Of a DNA stretch of 24,159 nucleotides, positions 3,807 through 24,019 are shown piece by piece. Below the pieces are notes generated by a model. That model was not told the DNA's origin, did not search any database, and was given only the letters and a program-made list of their open reading frames with translations. Where the stretch lies: the IMG/VR virus record IMGVR_UViG_3300028812_000145, positions 1-24,159 of that record. One strand, written 5' to 3'. The stretch is from a virus. Each line of letters begins with the position of its first letter. The first letter of the stretch is position 1. A program made the position numbers and the translations under genes.

Positions 3807-4198
3807 ATGCCGTCAAGAGCTTCCAGTGGTCTGGCAGTAAAGAGATGCGTGCGAATCTCCGTAAGGTGAAAGCGCAACAGCGTCGTCAAGTCGGACAGGG
3901 ACTGGCTGCTTTCGGAGAGGCAGTCATTGACGATGCGAAGCAGCCGGATCAAACGCCCGTCATGACGGGAGCGTTGCGTAATACGTTGTCTATCGAAGGT
4001 CCACTCTGGCGCGATAAGGACGTATCCATCCGTATCATCGCTGGTGGCCCATCGGCTCCTTATGCAGTGAAGGTTCATGAAGACTTGAACATGAACCACC
4101 CGAACGGAGGTAAAGCGAAGTTTCTGGAAGATCCGCTTACTGAGAAGTCAGCGGAAGCCATGGACATCATTGGGCAATACGTCACCCTACAGGACTAG
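3803..4198 (+). CDS. HK97 gp10-like tail completion / head-tail joining protein
   Basis: A 131-residue protein at the usual place, just before the tail terminator and tube genes. The family signature is visible: a basic helical N-terminus (MRANLRKVKAQQRRQVGQG), TPVMTGALRNTLSIEG at 51-66, and YAVKVHEDL (87-95) followed by a charged segment with KAKFLEDPL. Proteins of this family (HK97 gp10, SPP1 gp16/17-like neighbours) act where the tail attaches to the head connector. ATG 3803 is in an ATGA overlap with the upstream glycosyltransferase; no strong Shine-Dalgarno is seen, which fits coupled translation. A few bases separate it from the next tail gene. The family call is good; the precise joining step is inferred from order. 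Confidence 0.8.
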   Translation: MNAVKSFQWSGSKEMRANLRKVKAQQRRQVGQGLAAFGEAVIDDAKQPDQTPVMTGALRNTLSIEGPLWRDKDVSIRIIAGGPSAPYAVKVHEDLNMNHPNGGKAKFLEDPLTEKSAEAMDIIGQYVTLQD

Positions 4199-4203
4199 GT
4201 CAC

Positions 4204-4644
4204 ATGTTTCTCGACGATCTCGTCTCCCTCCTCGTGACTCGTGCCGGTATTCCACTGGCACGCATCCGAGCGTCCTCTCAAGCAACGGTGCCTCCGGTTC
4301 CGCCTGCTGACGGGATAGTGCACCTTCGGCAGTATGGGGGATTGGAGCCTGAGAGAACACAGAATGCGGTCACGCGAGATGGAGATCGTGTGGTAATCTC
4401 CGCGCGTCCGGCATGGCAGCGACCAAGTTGTCAGGTCACTGCCAGCGCTCCTACGTTCAAAGCTGCGGAGGCACTGGCATACAGCGCCTATTACGCTTTG
4501 GTTGGCGTCCGTAATCTCGTCGTTAGCGGCGGCGTTCGCTACCGAGAGATCGATGCAATACAGGAACCGTTCGACAACGGTCCTGACGGGAATGGACACG
4601 CGAAGGTCGTGTTCAACATTCGAGCAATCAAGACACCTTCCTAA
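4204..4644 (+). CDS. Probable tail terminator / minor capsid-like protein
   Basis: A 146-residue protein lying between the gp10-like gene and the tube gene, where siphophages encode the tail terminator (lambda gpU-like) or the related minor capsid/DUF3168-type protein. Features consistent with that: an N-terminal helix with LLVTRAGIPL, an alpha/beta segment with VTASAPTFKAAEALAYSAYY (a helix packing on the sheet), and a C-terminal strand pair RYREIDAIQEP and KVVFNIRAI that ends the protein, as terminators do. No catalytic motif. It would cap the tube and set the end of tail assembly. I rely on position and fold pattern rather than a diagnostic motif. Six bases after the previous stop. Confidence 0.62.
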   Translation: MFLDDLVSLLVTRAGIPLARIRASSQATVPPVPPADGIVHLRQYGGLEPERTQNAVTRDGDRVVISARPAWQRPSCQVTASAPTFKAAEALAYSAYYALVGVRNLVVSGGVRYREIDAIQEPFDNGPDGNGHAKVVFNIRAIKTPS

Positions 4645-11680: not shown

Positions 11681-12699
11681 GCGTCCTTCTCTTGGTGAAC
11701 CCGGATCGCTACGACACGTCCAAGCTGTCGCGCTATTGGCACGACGACTTGGATGTGGATGTAACGGCATCTGGATACGAGGGTAGGCCAGGATGGATTG
11801 GCACCAGTGAAGACGCATACGTGGTGCGGATGGTCCGTCCGAGTGCGGATCAGAGCTTCGTCATGGGCGCACGCTTCAAGGTTGATGCGCTTCCTGTTGC
11901 AGACAAGATCCTGTTGGCAGCAGTGGACGACGACCAAGCCATCCAGGTCTGTGTCGTGCTGAAGACGACTGGCTTGCTGGCGCTCTATCGTGGAGACATG
12001 GTGGATCTGCTCGCCACGTCTGTCGTCACGGTGAATGGCGGTGGTGCGTGGAATCGGATCTCATGGAAGGGCACGATTGATCGCACGGCTGGTTCCATGG
12101 AGTTGCAGCTTAACTCCACGCGCACGAACACGTATATCGTAGCCACGGTCGTGGGCGAGAACACAGCACCTGAAGATTCCCGTCGTTGGGGCGGAGCGTA
12201 TCTCGGTGTCACAGACCAGATTACCGCGGCTCACCTGTATGTGTTGGATGGAGCAGGCACACAGAACCAGATCATACCTGATGCGATCGTAACACCGATG
12301 GTGGCGAACGCTGATGGCACGTTCACGGAGTGGACACCGAACTCTGGCACGACACGCTACACGCAGATCGACGATGCGTCACCGGACGACAGCAGCACAT
12401 TCATCAAGGCCACGATTCCGGATGACGACTTCTCCGTGGAAGTCGAGGAGCTCGATGAAGCAGCGACAGCCGGGATCATCGCGGCGCAGATCACGATCAT
12501 GGCGCAGAGCACGGTCACGCCACAGCGTCGGCTGCGCCCGTTCGTCGTGGTCGATGGCGTGCAACGGTTCTACAGCGAGCAGGCGATTCCTTCGTCCTAC
12601 GCTGCAATGATGGTAGTGTCGCCTGTCAATCCGGCAACAGGATTGCCGTGGAAGGTGACAGACATTAACGACGTGGAGTGGGGAGCGCGACTGCGCTAG
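11677..12699 (+). CDS. Lectin-like minor tail protein, paralogue 1
   Basis: 340 residues, ATG in an ATGA overlap with the preceding gene. The N-terminal 200 residues look like a jelly-roll domain of the concanavalin A/laminin G type: FVMGARFKVDAL, ISWKGTIDRTAGSMELQLNS, and a strand ending AAHLYVLDGAGTQN. The C-terminal 130 residues begin ANADGTFTEWTPNSGT, then IDDASPDDSSTFIKATIPDD, and end with PATGLPWKVTDINDVEWGARL, a pattern shared with the next two genes. It is the most diverged of three tandem paralogues. Such modules are common in siphophage tail tips and likely bind carbohydrate on the host or hold the tip together; ligand unknown. Confidence 0.65.
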   Translation: MSVLLLVNPDRYDTSKLSRYWHDDLDVDVTASGYEGRPGWIGTSEDAYVVRMVRPSADQSFVMGARFKVDALPVADKILLAAVDDDQAIQVCVVLKTTGLLALYRGDMVDLLATSVVTVNGGGAWNRISWKGTIDRTAGSMELQLNSTRTNTYIVATVVGENTAPEDSRRWGGAYLGVTDQITAAHLYVLDGAGTQNQIIPDAIVTPMVANADGTFTEWTPNSGTTRYTQIDDASPDDSSTFIKATIPDDDFSVEVEELDEAATAGIIAAQITIMAQSTVTPQRRLRPFVVVDGVQRFYSEQAIPSSYAAMMVVSPVNPATGLPWKVTDINDVEWGARLR

Positions 12700-12707
12700 G
12701 AGATCCT

Positions 12708-13763
12708 ATGTCCGTTCTCTTTGTAGATTCGTTCGATCATTACGCCACGGCCGACTTCGCCCAGAAGTATGACATGCTCGGCGTCAACCACATGTCTATT
12801 ACAGCGACAGGACGTTGGGGCAGTAACGCGTTCCATTGCAGTGGAGGCAACGCCTATCTTCGTAAGGGCGTGAATCCTGGAAGTCAAGTTGCAATCGTCG
12901 GCTTCGCTGTGAAGTTCAACGCGACCGGACAATACGCGTTCTGCGAGACGTTCTCCTCGGTAATTGACGAACGTCCAATGGTGTTGTTCACGAAGAACTC
13001 GAACGGCAGCATCTCCGCGTGGCGCGCCAGTGACAGCACGGGATCGTCCGGCTCCATGTCGCACGCGTTCTGCACTCTCCTCGGCAGCACGCCAGCGGGC
13101 ATCGTGAACAACGGCACGTGGAACTACATCGAGCTCAAGGTCGATCACGACAACGCTGGCACGGTGGAGATCGCCGTCAATGGTAACGTGGAGCTCAGTG
13201 AAGTAGGCACCGTTGACACGCTGCCGACAGGTCGCATCTATGACGCGATTGGTTTCGGTCTTGCCACATCCAGCGGCTCTGTGGACTTCGACGACTTCTA
13301 CATCGCCGACGATCAAGGCGCGGACGTCAACGACTTCGTTGGTGACTCTCGTATTGAGGCAATCTACCCGGAGTCGGATGGCACACATCTCGATTGGACG
13401 CCGAGCACTGGCTCACCTCACTGGAGTCTCGTAGATGAGACTACGCCGAACGGAGACACGGACTACGTGTCTACCACGGCTCCCGGCAATCAGGACTCCT
13501 ACAACTATCAGACCGTCAGTGGTGCCGGTGACATCATCGCGGTGCAGGTGAACATCGTGGCGCGCAAGGAAGCGAGCGGCACGAAGAAGGTCAAGGCACT
13601 CGCGCGTGTGAGCGCTGCCGATTTCCTATCGACAGAGGAGCACGCTCTGGCGATGGACTACAAGGATTACCGCGCCATCTACACGAACAATCCGGACACG
13701 GCTGCGCCATGGAGCGCTGCGGAAGTCAACGCGTCTGAGTTTGGAGTGGAGGTCACGCTGTAA
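12708..13763 (+). CDS. Lectin-like minor tail protein, paralogue 2
   Basis: The start is ATG 12708, preceded by AGGAGAT, rather than the earlier GTG inside the previous gene. The 351-residue product begins MSVLFVDSFDHYATADFAQK. A laminin G-like domain follows (VAIVGFAVKFNATGQYAF, GTWNYIELKVDHDNAGTVEI, then AVNGNVELSE) closing with SVDFDDFYIADDQGADVNDF. The C-terminal module has THLDWTPSTGSPHWSLVDET and ends NNPDTAAPWSAAEVNASEFG. It closely resembles paralogue 3 and less so paralogue 1, so the set arose by duplication or repeated acquisition. Probable structural tail protein exposed at the tip and a candidate host-glycan binder. Confidence 0.68.
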   Translation: MSVLFVDSFDHYATADFAQKYDMLGVNHMSITATGRWGSNAFHCSGGNAYLRKGVNPGSQVAIVGFAVKFNATGQYAFCETFSSVIDERPMVLFTKNSNGSISAWRASDSTGSSGSMSHAFCTLLGSTPAGIVNNGTWNYIELKVDHDNAGTVEIAVNGNVELSEVGTVDTLPTGRIYDAIGFGLATSSGSVDFDDFYIADDQGADVNDFVGDSRIEAIYPESDGTHLDWTPSTGSPHWSLVDETTPNGDTDYVSTTAPGNQDSYNYQTVSGAGDIIAVQVNIVARKEASGTKKVKALARVSAADFLSTEEHALAMDYKDYRAIYTNNPDTAAPWSAAEVNASEFGVEVTL

Positions 13764-14824
13764 TGGCTCTCCGGTTCTGCGACTCGTTCGACCATTACGC
13801 TACGGCGGACTTCGCCTTGAAAGGCTGGACTACCGGCGGTGGTTTCGGTAGCGGTCCACAAGTTGTTGCGGCTGCTGCACGAACGGGAACAAATGGGGTC
13901 CGCAGTAACTCCGCCAGTGCCGCGCAAACCTTCATGATTCGAAGTGTAAGTGCAGCCAGCGGGACCACCGCCATCATCGGGTATGCACGCAAATACGCGA
14001 CAGTTGCTGTTCAGGAGTTAATGTTCTCGTTTCGCCTAAGTGGAACGGTTCAGTTCACGCTCTACCAGAACACCGACGGCTCGATGACGGCGTATCGTGG
14101 TGGCGGCGAAGCGAGCACGCCAAGCGGTGGAACGTCTTTAGGAAGTTCTGCTGCAAGTGTTCTTACGACAGGGTCACAGTATATCGAGCTGAAGGTCGTT
14201 ATCGATACCGGCACGAGCGGAAGTTTTGAAGTCCGCATCAACGGAGCGAACGTCCTTTCTGCAACCGGCATCAACACCGCGGGAGCAGGTTCGTCGGGAT
14301 GGAATAGTTTTCGTCTAGGTATCTTCGGCAGCGCGGCTGGTGACGGCTTAGACGACTTTTACGTGTGCGACGGTTCAGGGTCGTACAACAATGACTTCCT
14401 CGGCGACATCAAGGTCGAATGCAAAGTCGCATCAAGTGGTGATGGAAGCAACGCGGACTGGACTCCTTCCACCGGCACCGACAATGGGGCAATGGTCGAT
14501 GAAGCGTCCTACGACGGCGATACAACTTACAACTCCTCCAGCACCGTCAGTCAGAAGGACACATACAATTTCGCAGCACTATCCTCCACTGGCGCGGTGA
14601 AGGCGGTTCAGCACGGGACCTTCGCGCGCAAGACCGACGCAGGACTACGGGCCATCTGCAGTGTAGCGCGCCACAGCGGTGTGGATTACGACGGCTCAAA
14701 TGTCTATCTTGGAACCACTTATACCGCGGTTCTACGCGTGATGGAAGAGAACCCAGGCACAGCGGCACCGTGGACTATTGCCGGTGTGGATGGCGCGGAG
14801 TTCGGGCAGAAAGTCACAGTCTAG
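13763..14824 (+). CDS. Lectin-like minor tail protein, paralogue 3
   Basis: 353 residues; ATG shares a base with the preceding stop (TAATG), GGAGG about 10 bases upstream. The opening CDSFDHYATADFALKG repeats the paralogue 2 start, and the 36-base stretch 13781-13816 differs from 12726-12761 at four positions. The middle domain is richer in Gly/Ser/Ala than its neighbour (e.g. GGEASTPSGGTSLGSSAASV) but keeps YIELKVVIDTGTSGSFEVRI and LDDFYVCDGSGSYNNDFLGD. The C-terminal module is NADWTPSTGTDNGAMVDEAS through NPGTAAPWTIAGVDGAEFG. The loops between conserved strands have changed far more than the frame, as in receptor-binding modules under selection. Function inferred as tail-tip carbohydrate binding. 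Confidence 0.66.
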   Translation: MALRFCDSFDHYATADFALKGWTTGGGFGSGPQVVAAAARTGTNGVRSNSASAAQTFMIRSVSAASGTTAIIGYARKYATVAVQELMFSFRLSGTVQFTLYQNTDGSMTAYRGGGEASTPSGGTSLGSSAASVLTTGSQYIELKVVIDTGTSGSFEVRINGANVLSATGINTAGAGSSGWNSFRLGIFGSAAGDGLDDFYVCDGSGSYNNDFLGDIKVECKVASSGDGSNADWTPSTGTDNGAMVDEASYDGDTTYNSSSTVSQKDTYNFAALSSTGAVKAVQHGTFARKTDAGLRAICSVARHSGVDYDGSNVYLGTTYTAVLRVMEENPGTAAPWTIAGVDGAEFGQKVTV

Positions 14825-14827
14825 TCC

Positions 14828-17800
14828 ATGCCGTCGATTACTGGGACATCTACCGGAGCTCGAACTACCGCCGTATCGGCGAGTCTCACGTTCAGTCATA
14901 CGACGAACGGAGACCCGCTTTACGTCCTGGTGTTCTTGCAGGACGCCGGTGTGATGACGTCCACCGTGACGTTCAACGGAACAGACATGTTCCGTATGGA
15001 CTCCTCGGGGGATCTCGGTCAGCGCTACTTCCAGCTTTGGTTTCTTCCGAATCCGGGATCTACAACCGCAAACGTCGTCATTACACCCAACATTAGCACC
15101 GAGATTGTTGCAGGTGCTCTCAACGTCAATAACCCAGATCTCGACAGACCGTATGAGAACCTGGTATTCCAGCAGGTTACGAGCACTACACCGTCGCTGA
15201 ACGTAACAAGCGCCACTGGAGATCTTGTCGTTGACTTCATTGTCACGGACGGCAACAATCAGGTCTTCACCGAAGGTGCTGGGCAGACTGCTCTCTTCAA
15301 GCAGAGCAGCATTGCAAACGCTCTTGAGAAGGGCGCAATATCCACTGAGGCTGGTGGTGCTACGGTTGCGATGTCGTGGGGCCTCACTGTCAGCGATATC
15401 ATTACACAGGCCGGGTTTTCTATTCCCGATGTGGGAACAGTCGCCGATGTCGCTGCACGAGCCACGCAGTCATTCATTGAAGCTGTCATTGCGCCTGATG
15501 TCATTCCGACGCGGGTCTCGCAGTCCTTCATTGAAGTCGTCATCGGTGCGATTACCGAGGTAGAAGTTCCTGACATCGTTGGTGAGACGCAGGAGGACGC
15601 TGAAGACTTAATCACCGGAGCCGGTCTTACTGTCGGTGATGTCACGACCGCGTGCGACGACGAAGTTCCTGCTGGCAGCGTCATCTCGCAAGATCCTATT
15701 GCTGGCACCGAGCTAGATCCGGGTGAGCCTGTAGACTTCGTCGTATCCACAGGACCTTGCCCGGTAGCAGTCCCGGATGTAGTCGGTGAGACCGAAGGAG
15801 ACGCGACAACCATCCTGACAGGCGACGGCTTCACGGTCACAGTTGTCTACGCAAACAACGCAGCGCCAGTCGGAGAGGTATACGATCAAGATCCTGATGC
15901 AGCCACGATGGTTGCACCGGGAAGTGACGTCACGATCTATGTCTCGCTTGGTATCGATGGGCCAATCAGAGTTACGACGACTGCCTTAGAGGTTCCCTAC
16001 TATGGTGACTCTGATACGACACCGATACGTGTGTCAGGAGAGCCGGTAGAAGTCGTCACGCAAGACGATCCTCCTATTCGTGTCAGTGGTGAGCCGGTCG
16101 AAGTATGGACGCAGCCAGATCCCGCCATCCGGATGTCTGGCATCCCGGTGGAAGTGTGGACCAAGGTCACACCACTGCTGGAGCTCACCGAGATGCACAT
16201 CGATGTGCTGACAGGTGAGGACGCCGATCAGGAAGTCGAGGACACGCCGGAGGTAGAAGACTGCACTGGCTCTGGCCTAGTGGCCGAAGGCATCAATCCG
16301 CCTGCGGGCCTCTCGCCTGCTCTCGCGACGGAGCCAGTGCTGTGGGTGGAGATCACCATTGACGAAGACGTGTATCGCTTCGCGAAGGCTGGCGTCAACT
16401 TCGGTATGCCGAAGACGGGCAACGTCGTCCGCTTCGGTAAGCTGCGTCGTTCGCTGACTGACAACGGTGGCCCGAAGGGATCACAGATCACCACACGCTT
16501 CGCGGACACAGACCGCACGCTGCGAGATCTTGCTGAAGCGAACGTCCTCAAGGGAGCGCTGGTCGAATACTACATCCTCGACTACCCGGTGATGAAGGTC
16601 ACGGGAGATGCGAACGCGTTCCGGAAGTTCCGTGGTCGTATCTTCAACCACAAGGAGATCAACGATCTCGACTTCGACATCACGGTGGAAGACGAGCTCA
16701 CGTCACGGCTCACGAGCGCAGACGCGAAGGATCTGCTGGTCCCACGCAACACGATCGACACCGAGATCTCGACGCTGGAAGCTCCATACGAGAAGAACAA
16801 GGATAAGCCAATCCAGAGTGGCTACGGTAAGCTGTCGGACGAAGTGCTGTTGGCTGCGGCCGAAGGCACCGTCCAACTGAAATACATCGGCCAGCAGAAC
16901 ACGTCCGAGCTTGGCATCTCACTGCCTATCTCCGTCGTGGACGTGTATCTCGCGATGGGCCACGCGTGTCAGTTGGTGCAGAACATCTACGGTGCCGACT
17001 ACCAGACTGGTGGCGAGTCACCCACGACACGCGCGCGTATTCCCGAGAGCGCGTATGGCCAGTTTATCTGGTCTCCGTTCAAGCCTAACTGGCCCGGAGG
17101 CACGACTGTCCCATACAGCGTCATCGGCACGGATCCGCAGCGACTGACGTTGGTCCTGCTCGATCCCACGCACATCGTCTCGAAGCTGGCACGCGAGAAC
17201 CGGATCCCGATTACGGGCAACTTCTGTGCGACGGAAGAGAAGGGCGACGGCTCGCTCTTCATGATCAACAATCCTGCACTGGCCTTCCTGCACTGGTATA
17301 ACAACCGGATCGCGCAGGAAGCGTCAGAGGATTGGTTGCCGATGGCCGACTTCGGTGGCTACTCTCTGTTCGATACCGACACGTTCTATGAGGTAGCGGA
17401 GCTCCTCGAAGAACTCGGATGGGACATCGAGGGTATGCTCGGCTTCGACTCCCAGATCTCATGGCGTGATTCCGTGTTCGAGTTCATCCGGAATTACAAC
17501 ATGGACAGTGGCCCGAACCGCCACGGTCAGACGATCTGCGTGAAGCTGAACCGAACGAATCCACACTCGGATGCGCCCGTATTCGACGAGACGCTGATTC
17601 TCGAGGGTGGCGTGCATACCAATGCGCGCGCGGACGCAGTCGCGAATAAGGTGTGGTATCAGAACACGAAGAACTACCTGAGTGCCTTGCAGGGTGTAAC
17701 ACCGAATCCGGGTGAGCGTGATTGGCGCGAACCATTCGACGGTGCTTACAAGTCTGGCGTGCGCTCAGTTCAGAACGATATCTCGATAGCGGCCCTAAGT

Positions 17801-18133
17801 CATGATGGCGACTTAGAGACAGGGATTCGTAACTCCGACATGCTGGAGTTCAATCTCATACGTAACGATACGACTGCACTAGAAGTGGCCGAGGAGTTCC
17901 GTGATCTGTGGTCGGTGCCTGAAGGCCGATTGGAGCTCACGTTCGATCTGTGGATGTCGGACGGCTTCGCGTTGGAACTTGGCACCGTGATCAAGCTGCG
18001 CCACCGTGATACACGATGGGCACTCGACGAGACGCGGCGCTGCCAAGTGCGCGAGATCGAGGATGACTTCGACAGCTTCGTAATAACCCCAACTGTGCGG
18101 GATGTGGAGGACTTGCTTCCTGCAGAGGTGTGA
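14828..18133 (+). CDS. Tail hub / tail-tip protein with two PASTA domains
   Basis: 1101 residues, mosaic. Residues 1-205: beta-sandwich (VSASLTFSHTTNGDPLYVLV). 208-242: two short strand repeats (ARATQSFIEAVI, TRVSQSFIEVVI). About 247-311 and 313-375: two PASTA domains, each starting VPDIVGET/VPDVVGET and ending with a DFVVSTG- or IYVSLG-like strand. 378-463: four to five 17-residue repeats of the form PIRVSGEPVEVVTQDDP (51-base period). An acidic linker follows, then a long tail-hub region, about 500-1101 (VLWVEITIDEDVYRFAKAGV, FRKFRGRIFNHKEINDLDFD, LELTFDLWMSDGFALELG). PASTA domains in other proteins bind peptidoglycan stem peptides or muropeptides, so this tip may touch the cell wall. The C-terminal region probably forms the central hub below the tape measure. 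No Shine-Dalgarno is obvious. Confidence 0.75.
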   Translation: MPSITGTSTGARTTAVSASLTFSHTTNGDPLYVLVFLQDAGVMTSTVTFNGTDMFRMDSSGDLGQRYFQLWFLPNPGSTTANVVITPNISTEIVAGALNVNNPDLDRPYENLVFQQVTSTTPSLNVTSATGDLVVDFIVTDGNNQVFTEGAGQTALFKQSSIANALEKGAISTEAGGATVAMSWGLTVSDIITQAGFSIPDVGTVADVAARATQSFIEAVIAPDVIPTRVSQSFIEVVIGAITEVEVPDIVGETQEDAEDLITGAGLTVGDVTTACDDEVPAGSVISQDPIAGTELDPGEPVDFVVSTGPCPVAVPDVVGETEGDATTILTGDGFTVTVVYANNAAPVGEVYDQDPDAATMVAPGSDVTIYVSLGIDGPIRVTTTALEVPYYGDSDTTPIRVSGEPVEVVTQDDPPIRVSGEPVEVWTQPDPAIRMSGIPVEVWTKVTPLLELTEMHIDVLTGEDADQEVEDTPEVEDCTGSGLVAEGINPPAGLSPALATEPVLWVEITIDEDVYRFAKAGVNFGMPKTGNVVRFGKLRRSLTDNGGPKGSQITTRFADTDRTLRDLAEANVLKGALVEYYILDYPVMKVTGDANAFRKFRGRIFNHKEINDLDFDITVEDELTSRLTSADAKDLLVPRNTIDTEISTLEAPYEKNKDKPIQSGYGKLSDEVLLAAAEGTVQLKYIGQQNTSELGISLPISVVDVYLAMGHACQLVQNIYGADYQTGGESPTTRARIPESAYGQFIWSPFKPNWPGGTTVPYSVIGTDPQRLTLVLLDPTHIVSKLARENRIPITGNFCATEEKGDGSLFMINNPALAFLHWYNNRIAQEASEDWLPMADFGGYSLFDTDTFYEVAELLEELGWDIEGMLGFDSQISWRDSVFEFIRNYNMDSGPNRHGQTICVKLNRTNPHSDAPVFDETLILEGGVHTNARADAVANKVWYQNTKNYLSALQGVTPNPGERDWREPFDGAYKSGVRSVQNDISIAALSHDGDLETGIRNSDMLEFNLIRNDTTALEVAEEFRDLWSVPEGRLELTFDLWMSDGFALELGTVIKLRHRDTRWALDETRRCQVREIEDDFDSFVITPTVRDVEDLLPAEV
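15959..16216 (+). repeat. 17-residue (51-base) strand repeats in the tail hub gene
   Basis: In-frame imperfect repeats, clearest at 16022-16072, 16073-16123 and 16124-16174, encoding P-I-R-V-S-G-x-P-V-E-V-[VW]-T-x4. Flanking diverged units are IRVTTTALEVP before and LLELTEMHIDVLTGE after. The same R-x-[ST]-Q-x-x-I-E-V core occurs at 15449-15553, before the PASTA domains. Similar ARVSQxxVEVL repeats are frequent in phage tail proteins as short spacer strands. The DNA copies differ at many third positions, so they are not recent duplications. Confidence 0.75.
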
Positions 18134-18136
18134 CCC

Positions 18137-18556
18137 TTGTCGGATGTAGCTGTGACCCAGATAGTCCTACTCGTCACGACGATTGTCACGCTGGTATACC
18201 AGCTATACCGAGATAAGCGTGACCGTCGATGGCGGAAGGAAGACGCAGAGGAGAAGAAAGAGATCGTTCAGTTCCAAAGTGAGATGCGTCGGAACCACAC
18301 GCGTCTCCAAAGCGATCTCAATAAGAACACGCAGATCAGCGAGAAGGCGTTCAAGGAAGCGAACGACGTGAACGTCAAGATCCTGGCGGTGAACACTGAG
18401 CTCTTAGCAACACGGTCCATCGTGAAGCAGATCGCTGAGCGTCCGATTGTGCCAGCGGTCATTCCGATCCGTGTTGAAGATGCGGAGGCAATACTCGCAC
18501 AGCGCGATCACCCTCCGCAGACCATGAAGCGGCGAAAGGAGGATGACACCAAGTAA
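18137..18556 (+). CDS. Small membrane-anchored coiled-coil protein
   Basis: 139 residues, TTG start with AGAGG (18123-18127) at good spacing. Residues about 6-23 form one hydrophobic helix (VTQIVLLVTTIVTLVYQLY) followed at once by a strongly basic stretch (RDKRDRRWRKE), which by the positive-inside rule puts the long C-terminal part in the cytoplasm. Residues 37-100 are heptad-like and charged (coiled coil), then a proline-containing RPIVPAVIPIRVEDAEAIL and a basic end. It follows the hub gene and precedes the lysis region, so a holin-like or holin-accessory role is possible, but a phage membrane scaffold is equally possible. I do not recognise a named family. Confidence 0.6.
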   Translation: MSDVAVTQIVLLVTTIVTLVYQLYRDKRDRRWRKEDAEEKKEIVQFQSEMRRNHTRLQSDLNKNTQISEKAFKEANDVNVKILAVNTELLATRSIVKQIAERPIVPAVIPIRVEDAEAILAQRDHPPQTMKRRKEDDTK

Positions 18557-22819: not shown

Positions 22820-22845
22820 GCGTGGACTACCGCAGTAGTCCACGC
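22820..22845 (-). other. 11-bp perfect hairpin across the end of the metallopeptidase-like gene
   Basis: GCGTGGACTAC (22820-22830) and GTAGTCCACGC (22835-22845) pair perfectly with a 4-base loop. The leftward stop codon (22827-22829) lies in the stem, and the next leftward start is at 22801. No T-tract follows in the leftward direction (CGTGCCGATAGG), so it is not a standard terminator; an mRNA stability or partial attenuation element between the two genes is more likely. Confidence 0.55.
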
Positions 22846-23987
22846 TTGCCAGTGCTGCCACCAGTGACAGCCTTCCGGCCAATCGCCATCCGGTCGGCTG
22901 CTGCTCGTCCTGCTTCACGTCCTCCGGCATGGCTCCCACGCCCGATGCCGAGACCGCTGACGCCACCACGCTTCGAACTGAACTTGTCGTCGATGTAGTT
23001 CCGAACCTTGACCAGCGCTCCGTTGAGACGCACGAGTGCCACGCTCTGCGCTCCAGCGGGAGCCGGATGCTCCGCATCGAACTGAGCGACGGCTGCTCTG
23101 CGTGCTTCGTCGAAGCGCTCGCCAATGCGAATGATGAACGATCCGATCCACGACTCCTTGTATCCCTTGGTGTCACGCGTGTGACCTACTTCACGCTTCT
23201 GAGCGAACCAGTAACGGCAGTATTCCTGATGCGCCATCTTGTCCACGGCTGCAACGAGGATGCCATACGTGTATTCTGCCACCATCGCGTGTGACCGCGT
23301 GCCGACGAACCAGATGTCGTTGCGACCTTGCGAAATCAGGTGAGTGCAGAGATGCGCTTCGGCGACCTTGCGAGCGAGCGTCTCCTGCCATGCAATGCGA
23401 CGCTTCTTGCGCTCGATCTGATACTTGCTCAGGTCTACGCGAATCTCCACGACGGGATCGTTGTCTGAGGCACGCGCGAAGTCGAGATCCGAGGGATGGA
23501 GCTCATACTCGATGAGCATCCGGTTGATGGCTGCTGCGAACGCTTCGGCTGCTTCCGCATTGCCAAGTGCTGCCTCTCCATCCTTCTGCGCTTGCATCTT
23601 CACCAGCTTGCGCACGATCTTCTCTCGGTGTGACTCCTGCTGATTGACCAGCGCTTCGTGGAGCTCCAGCGCCAGAGCGTTCCACTCGGTGCCATGATTC
23701 ATGTAGCGCAGGTGTGCCAGTTCGTGCGCTGCGGTCTCCCAGATCTTCGCTGGTGTCCGTGGCTCCTCCACCCATGCACCGTCCACGGTCGCACGCATGA
23801 CGATGCGGATATCACCAGTCCCGGAGCAGTCGCCCAAGCGATCCGCCTGTGAACGCGTCGGCATTGGGAGCGGTTCGACACTCCGCAGTGGAAGGTCATA
23901 CTGCGTCGCCACGCGACGCATGGCCGCACGCACTTCCTCGAACAGCAGCAGGTCGTCAGGATGGAGCAGAGCGATCGTTGGTGTCAT
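22827..23987 (-). CDS. HExxH metallopeptidase-like protein fused to DUF2786/DUF7168-like regions
   Basis: 386 residues; ATG at 23987 with GAGGG just upstream. Residues 1-115 form a zincin-like domain: H88-E89-x-x-H92 in TAAHELAHLRYMNHGTEW, with H98 as the probable third zinc ligand, resembling SprT/YgjP-type "HELxHLxxxNH" proteins. Residues about 119-170 (EKIVRKLVKMQAQ, EAAEAFAAAINRMLIEYELH) fit DUF2786, and about 200-330 (LARKVAEAHLCTHLISQG, RSHAMVAEYTYGILVAAVDK, WIGSFIIRIGERFDE) fit the DUF7168-type partner often found with it. The last 50 residues are Gly/Arg-rich and probably disordered, possibly nucleic-acid binding. A zinc peptidase or DNA-associated role is possible; the real substrate is unknown. 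It heads a leftward group with two small genes. Confidence 0.75.
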   Translation of the reverse strand: MTPTIALLHPDDLLLFEEVRAAMRRVATQYDLPLRSVEPLPMPTRSQADRLGDCSGTGDIRIVMRATVDGAWVEEPRTPAKIWETAAHELAHLRYMNHGTEWNALALELHEALVNQQESHREKIVRKLVKMQAQKDGEAALGNAEAAEAFAAAINRMLIEYELHPSDLDFARASDNDPVVEIRVDLSKYQIERKKRRIAWQETLARKVAEAHLCTHLISQGRNDIWFVGTRSHAMVAEYTYGILVAAVDKMAHQEYCRYWFAQKREVGHTRDTKGYKESWIGSFIIRIGERFDEARRAAVAQFDAEHPAPAGAQSVALVRLNGALVKVRNYIDDKFSSKRGGVSGLGIGRGSHAGGREAGRAAADRMAIGRKAVTGGSTGKRGLLR

Positions 23988-24019
23988 GGTCCCTCACAGT
24001 CAAACAGTCAGACGGTATT

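Follow-up and report, generated by a model that had tools for sequence, protein, structure and literature searches.

The window, that is, the whole stretch of DNA analysed here (a virus record of 24159 bases), encodes on its minus strand a 386-residue protein in which an N-terminal zincin domain of predicted Wss1-like fold is joined to a DUF2786-DUF7168 module and a basic tail. This architecture recurs in other phage contigs, usually near DNA-replication genes, with four motif residues invariant throughout. We propose, at a probability of roughly 45%, that the fusion acts as a zinc protease tethered to DNA, where it would remove bound or crosslinked proteins while the phage replicates. The features of the gene are as follows.

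22827..23987, minus strand: whole gene, 386 amino acids plus stop; WLM/YgjP-type zincin, divergent DUF2786, DUF7168 and basic tail
23634..23987, minus strand: N-terminal zincin domain, residues 1-118; predicted Wss1-like fold
23712..23726, minus strand: HELAH putative metal-binding motif, residues 88-92; invariant in 12/12 distinct fusion proteins
23694..23696, minus strand: His98 in NHG, third predicted zinc ligand of HExxH-x5-H; aligns with the equivalent His of Wss1
23499..23633, minus strand: DUF2786-like helical region, residues ~119-163; from hhalign, blank in Pfam
23067..23417, minus strand: DUF7168, residues 191-307, from Pfam; KH-like beta-alpha-beta-beta-alpha core at ~176-247
22830..22979, minus strand: basic Gly/Arg-rich C-terminal tail, residues 337-386; net charge +9; partly of low confidence in the models
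23988..23997, minus strand: SD-like GTGAGGGACC immediately 5' of the ATG, read by eye

The fusion recurs with invariant motif residues

An earlier note, made from the letters of the window, had described a HELAH with a downstream NHG, a Gly/Arg-rich basic tail, and a zinc-peptidase-like domain with a possible zinc site (H88, H92, H98). The motif is present as described in this open reading frame, and the tail contains 14 Gly and 8 Arg. Searches of viral contigs, together with one search of genome contigs, recovered the fusion of zincin and DUF2786-DUF7168 in 12 distinct proteins from environmental phage or phage-like contigs, and the architecture is thus not a one-off. With identical or near-identical proteins entered once, these comprise the window protein (together with L002, which is 99.85% identical to the window across 7185 bases), L008, L009, L014, L015, L016, L018, L054, L063, L064, L066, and L068. 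The contig that carries L018 is 54 kb long and comes from a MAG labelled Sulfuricaulis; judging from its size and gene content, it is probably a phage contig binned into the MAG. The distribution of the fusion is patchy, and searches of named phages and plasmids with the window protein found nothing at an E of 1e-3 or better. Two of the fusion genes, L009 (~4190-4400) and L064 (~4600), contain frame breaks, possibly from sequencing error.

Loss of H88, E89, or H92 in close homologues was what the earlier note had set against a zinc site. These residues, as well as H98, were kept in 12/12 distinct fusion proteins, namely the 10 aligned full-length proteins, the N-terminal piece of L009, and L064 (the last read by eye). 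Because composition-preserving shuffles of the window protein gave HExxH in 3.4% of cases and HExxH-x5-H in 0.13%, the motif alone is only suggestive; it is the conservation across the distinct fusion proteins that establishes HExxH-x5-H as real. The two halves of the protein have diverged equally, with mean identities of 52.5% in the zincin half and 53.7% in the C-terminal half (45 pairs).

A WLM/YgjP-type zincin of predicted Wss1-like fold forms the N-terminal domain

An AlphaFold2 model built from 10 alignment rows had a mean pLDDT of 75.6 and a pTM of 0.50. With this model, the top five Foldseek matches were all Wss1 (prob 1.00, but E only 0.03-0.14), and VIA placed Wss1 (5xbn) at Z 12.6 with an rmsd of 2.8 over 110 residues, the next unrelated rows being near 7; that the VIA lists lack other folds was not counted as evidence. 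Wss1 chains were also the best matches when a profile of 10 fusion proteins was compared with PDB sequences, at E values (0.12 and 0.18) that are weak alone, and the Wss1 alignment obtained from the family profile pairs the three His and the Glu of the motif. Among the 10 full-length members, all match the Pfam YgjP-like family at E up to 1 (best 5e-6) and eight match WLM at E up to 1 (best 4.6e-6). For the window protein, Pfam returned nothing for WLM up to an E of 10 and a weak match to YgjP-like, which aligns ~20 residues and stays under the curated cut-off. Since only 3/15 records exceed the WLM curated cut-off, we use the label WLM/YgjP-type and not strict WLM membership. On the evidence of the models and profiles, the domain is a WLM/YgjP-type zincin whose predicted fold is closest to Wss1, which supports the zinc-peptidase-like domain of the earlier note.

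The SprT-type analogy drawn at the outset fared less well, and Wss1/WLM fits in its place: the SprT-like Pfam family reached only E 0.091 in the window domain (13.1 bits versus a cut-off of 25.6) and matched 1/10 members, at E 0.35, and we rejected this assignment in favor of WLM/YgjP. WLM alone is no marker for the fusion gene, because cellular WLM matches, found in 153/398 genomes at E up to 0.001 (41 above the cut-off), are mostly short and lie around the active site. An NCBIfam search gave nothing useful. Our literature search on the WLM domain in bacteriophages found only work on an algal virus, and one that combined Wss1 and SprT with their evolution in phages and prokaryotes found nothing.

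The C-terminal part belongs to a widespread, normally stand-alone phage family

The DUF7168 assignment of the earlier note is significant in Pfam, with 38.8 bits versus a cut-off of 25.5 (E ~9e-10) in the window protein, and the family was matched in 10/10 full-length fusion members. In PHROGs, residues 118-377 match phrog_421 at E 8e-23. The DUF2786 assignment stood only in part: the window protein is blank for this family in Pfam up to an E of 10, and DUF2786 is missing from the 17 families that the 10 full-length members hit at E up to 1, the region being too divergent, whereas a profile-profile alignment supports the relationship. In the latter (hhalign, on residues 112-386), 11 fusion C-termini aligned with 31 stand-alone DUF2786-DUF7168 proteins across columns 11-178 (97.6%, E 4.4e-12), a span that takes in the helical region where DUF2786 sits. 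Modelled alone from 44 rows, the C-terminal part reached a pLDDT of 86.8 and a pTM of 0.75. Its DUF7168 core matched many KH entries among known structures, although weakly, with Z at ~5-7 and Foldseek E values above 0.4. KH domains are known to bind single-stranded nucleic acid. By eye, residues 176-200 hold a basic ERKKRR stretch and no GXXG loop.

A stand-alone DUF2786-DUF7168 protein is encoded in 371 of 600 pattern-matched viral stretches, among the matches listed. In the best 80 of these 371 phage loci, HExxH occurred in none of the stand-alone phrog_421 proteins (0/80), and the flanks of their genes showed no zincin pattern. Likewise, a pattern search of 30 cellular loci found no separate zincin gene beside a stand-alone DUF2786 gene; only the known fusion L050 showed a zincin. 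In the phylum of G001, the genome from which L018 comes, the DUF7168 cut-off is exceeded in 31/398 genomes, and the open frames of these matches, among those listed, are mostly 230-304 aa long, with G001 as the only fusion. By sequence, the C-terminal part belongs to phrog_421, whose members normally stand alone. The closest relative without a zincin, L067, is sister to the fusions in our tree, in which the 11 fusions form a clade with support 77, a position that suggests a single gain of the zinc domain; a loss could also account for it. The C-terminal tails of the fusions carry a mean charge of +8.3 (n=11) versus +2.7 in the stand-alone proteins (n=31), 2/31 of which fall inside the fusion range, and L067 has a tail of +6 despite being without a zincin.

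In the literature searched, we found no mention of DUF7168, and DUF2786 is mentioned in five papers. In a Mu-like phage and in a jumbo phage, the stand-alone module has DNA-metabolism genes nearby. In Bacillus phage AR9 (L005, 1879-3100), the stand-alone DUF2786 gene adjoins a DprA-like gene and lies near SbcD-like and DnaB-like genes. Three candidate relatives were set aside: (i) mycobacteriophage Fibonacci, considered as a split fusion, in which gene 85 looks like a stand-alone DUF2786-type gene and gene 86 is without HExxH; (ii) Thermus phage TSP4, where the annotated gene at the match reads as transposase-like and is no relative; and (iii) Inquilinus limosus (L019), where the match is a chance one to an ankyrin-like open reading frame.

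The fusion gene usually lies in a replication context

A PolA gene is present in 11/15 records, downstream of the fusion gene and on the same strand in all 11, at a distance of 2.1-8.1 kb in 10 records and of 42.6 kb in one; the protein is identical in two of the 11, G408 and G411. PolA was not found in the window, L002, L063, or L067, none of which exceeds 24.2 kb. A VapE/Prim-Pol-type gene occurs in 10/15 records (nine above the cut-off), and in five of them it lies upstream within 6 kb on the opposite strand. The window and L002, both fragments, contain neither PolA nor VapE, and the replication-context argument rests partly on fragmentary records. Upstream of the fusion gene, on the same strand, L002 encodes a DnaQ-type exonuclease and an SNF2 helicase. 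A TAGT glycosyltransferase was found in 4/15 records. In the window, the fusion gene is near lysis and tail genes, on the strand opposite to the structural genes.

Several other open frames were noticed in these records. L057 (4184-7813) contains a single 1210-aa frame that combines a TET-associated glycosyltransferase with DNA polymerase A, and the G407 record (14969-18310) likewise holds a glycosyltransferase and DNA polymerase A in one open frame of 1242 aa. A conserved 230-aa neighbour in L056 (7811-8518), with homologues in L053 and L055, is blank in Pfam. Within the window, a phage open frame at 19547-20302 matches a spondin-like TSP1 domain (E 6.4e-10; 39.6 bits, slightly under the cut-off of 41), a 1101-aa frame at 14828-18133 has two PASTA stretches (E 2.5e-31), a 99-aa frame at 19290-19589 matches the Fis-family helix-turn-helix HTH_8 (E 1.3e-13), and the adjacent frames at 12678-13763 and 13763-14824, both blank in Pfam, look paralogous by eye (SFDHYATADFA motif).

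Proposed function and alternatives

Because the gene is usually near DNA-replication genes, we favor a role in clearing proteins off phage DNA; the substrate is inferred, as are proteolysis and the binding of zinc and DNA. In this model, His88, His92, and His98 would hold the zinc and Glu89 would act as the catalytic base; the protease would be kept on phage DNA or at the replisome by its DUF2786-DUF7168 module together with the basic tail; and the enzyme would cleave proteins that block, or are crosslinked to, the DNA, which could let the phage fork proceed, like Wss1 in yeast. The idea, already raised in the earlier note, that the DUF parts direct the protease to DNA gains indirect support from the replication-gene context, the basic tail, and the weak KH-like fold of DUF7168. 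Several observations count against the protease model, namely the ArdC precedent (below), the blank WLM result for the window protein and the small share of records above the WLM cut-off, the weakness of the KH-like matches and their missing GXXG loop, the overlap of some stand-alone tails with the fusion range, the charged tail of L067, and the partly fragmentary context. Wss1 is recruited by SUMO and ubiquitin partners that, to our knowledge, bacteria do not have, which also counts against a Wss1-like model. Substrate cleavage by Wss1 and SPRTN is DNA dependent (PMC5128726), and their proteolysis is described as replication coupled (PMC6219452). A closer equivalence, in which the fusion is a Wss1-type replication-coupled crosslink protease in phages, with the KH-like DUF7168 of phrog_421 supplying ssDNA binding, appears doubtful to us.

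The same DNA-tethered protease might instead cut a DNA-bound host protein, such as a restriction subunit, a nuclease, or a repressor, in anti-defence or host takeover. Zincins of jumbo phages (SprT-like and ArdC-like) are patchy in distribution, as is our fusion with its 12 distinct proteins, and are proposed to target host proteins (PMC7824862); it is because of this suspicion that we keep the anti-defence reading in view, along with the antirestriction that ArdC confers (PMC7213743). The identified neighbours, however, are replication genes and no known anti-defence genes, and PADLOC gave no strong match (1/10 members, at E 0.016), so that the anti-defence protease put forward in the earlier note found no direct support and is, in our judgment, unlikely. 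The ArdC precedent bears on catalysis as well, since its antirestriction reportedly worked without protease activity (PMC7213743), and the zincin could by analogy be a binding or regulatory domain whose protease activity is dispensable. The invariance of the catalytic Glu and of the ligands suggests that catalysis matters, and we regard a dispensable activity as quite improbable.

Two further readings would assign the domain to other substrates, and we give both very little weight. YbeY has three His in an H-x3-H-x5-H spacing, and its presence in the VIA list (Z 5.9 over 106 residues) would fit an RNA-directed metal hydrolase, with the KH-like part guiding a metallo-RNase similar to YbeY. Against this, Wss1 is far ahead in the same comparison, the Pfam families are YgjP-like and WLM, and E89 is invariant in the fusion proteins, while YbeY has a Gly at the equivalent position. 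A maturation protease for phage structural proteins would suit the lysis and tail genes near the fusion gene in the window, and maturation has been proposed for some jumbo-phage zincins (PMC7824862); however, the gene lies on the strand opposite to the structural genes and near replication genes in relatives, and the fused module occurs alone near DNA-metabolism genes, as in the Mu-like and jumbo phages above.

The zinc-protease fusion offers a rare functional handle on the widespread DUF2786-DUF7168 phage proteins. If the closer equivalence to Wss1 held, with DUF7168 supplying ssDNA binding, these proteins would take on a role as replisome-associated DNA-binding factors. Should the fusion degrade proteins on DNA, phages would possess a Wss1-like system that could serve as a compact model of crosslink proteolysis, and an orphan module would gain a testable DNA-binding role.

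Comparison with known systems

Wss1, the yeast DNA-protein-crosslink protease with a WLM domain, shares with the fusion (i) the HExxH-x5-H motif and the predicted fold, (ii) a protease domain joined to a possible DNA-binding part, and (iii) a likely replication link. It differs in having its own tail in place of the DUF2786-DUF7168 half, and identity in the structural alignments is 16-17%, the window protein being without a Pfam WLM match. The YgjP-like bacterial metallopeptidases (PF01863) match around the HELAH in 10/10 members at E up to 1; they lack the DUF2786-DUF7168 half, and the match in the window protein is short and below the cut-off. Stand-alone phrog_421 proteins, for example Bacillus phage AR9 g005, are homologous to the C-terminal part of the fusion but are without a zincin, and DUF2786 is divergent in the fusion.

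SprT-like proteins have been reported in mycobacteriophages (PMC12363180). With SPRTN and the SprT-like proteases, the fusion shares the idea of a DNA-directed zincin protease, whereas its SprT-like Pfam score is poor and its closest fold is Wss1. ArdC likewise joins a nucleic-acid-binding part to a metalloprotease part, but its N-terminal ssDNA-binding domain precedes the metalloprotease, an order that is reversed in the fusion; its metal ligands are His, His, and Glu (PMC7213743) versus three predicted His in the fusion, and the window protein has no Pfam match to the ArdC domain at E up to 10. Finally, Kaya_018, a stand-alone SprT-like protein of a Septimatrevirus (by Pfam at E 6.2e-5, slightly under the cut-off), is without DUF2786-DUF7168 but has a similar N-terminal domain (29% over 93 aa), and its gene adjoins a primase/helicase gene.
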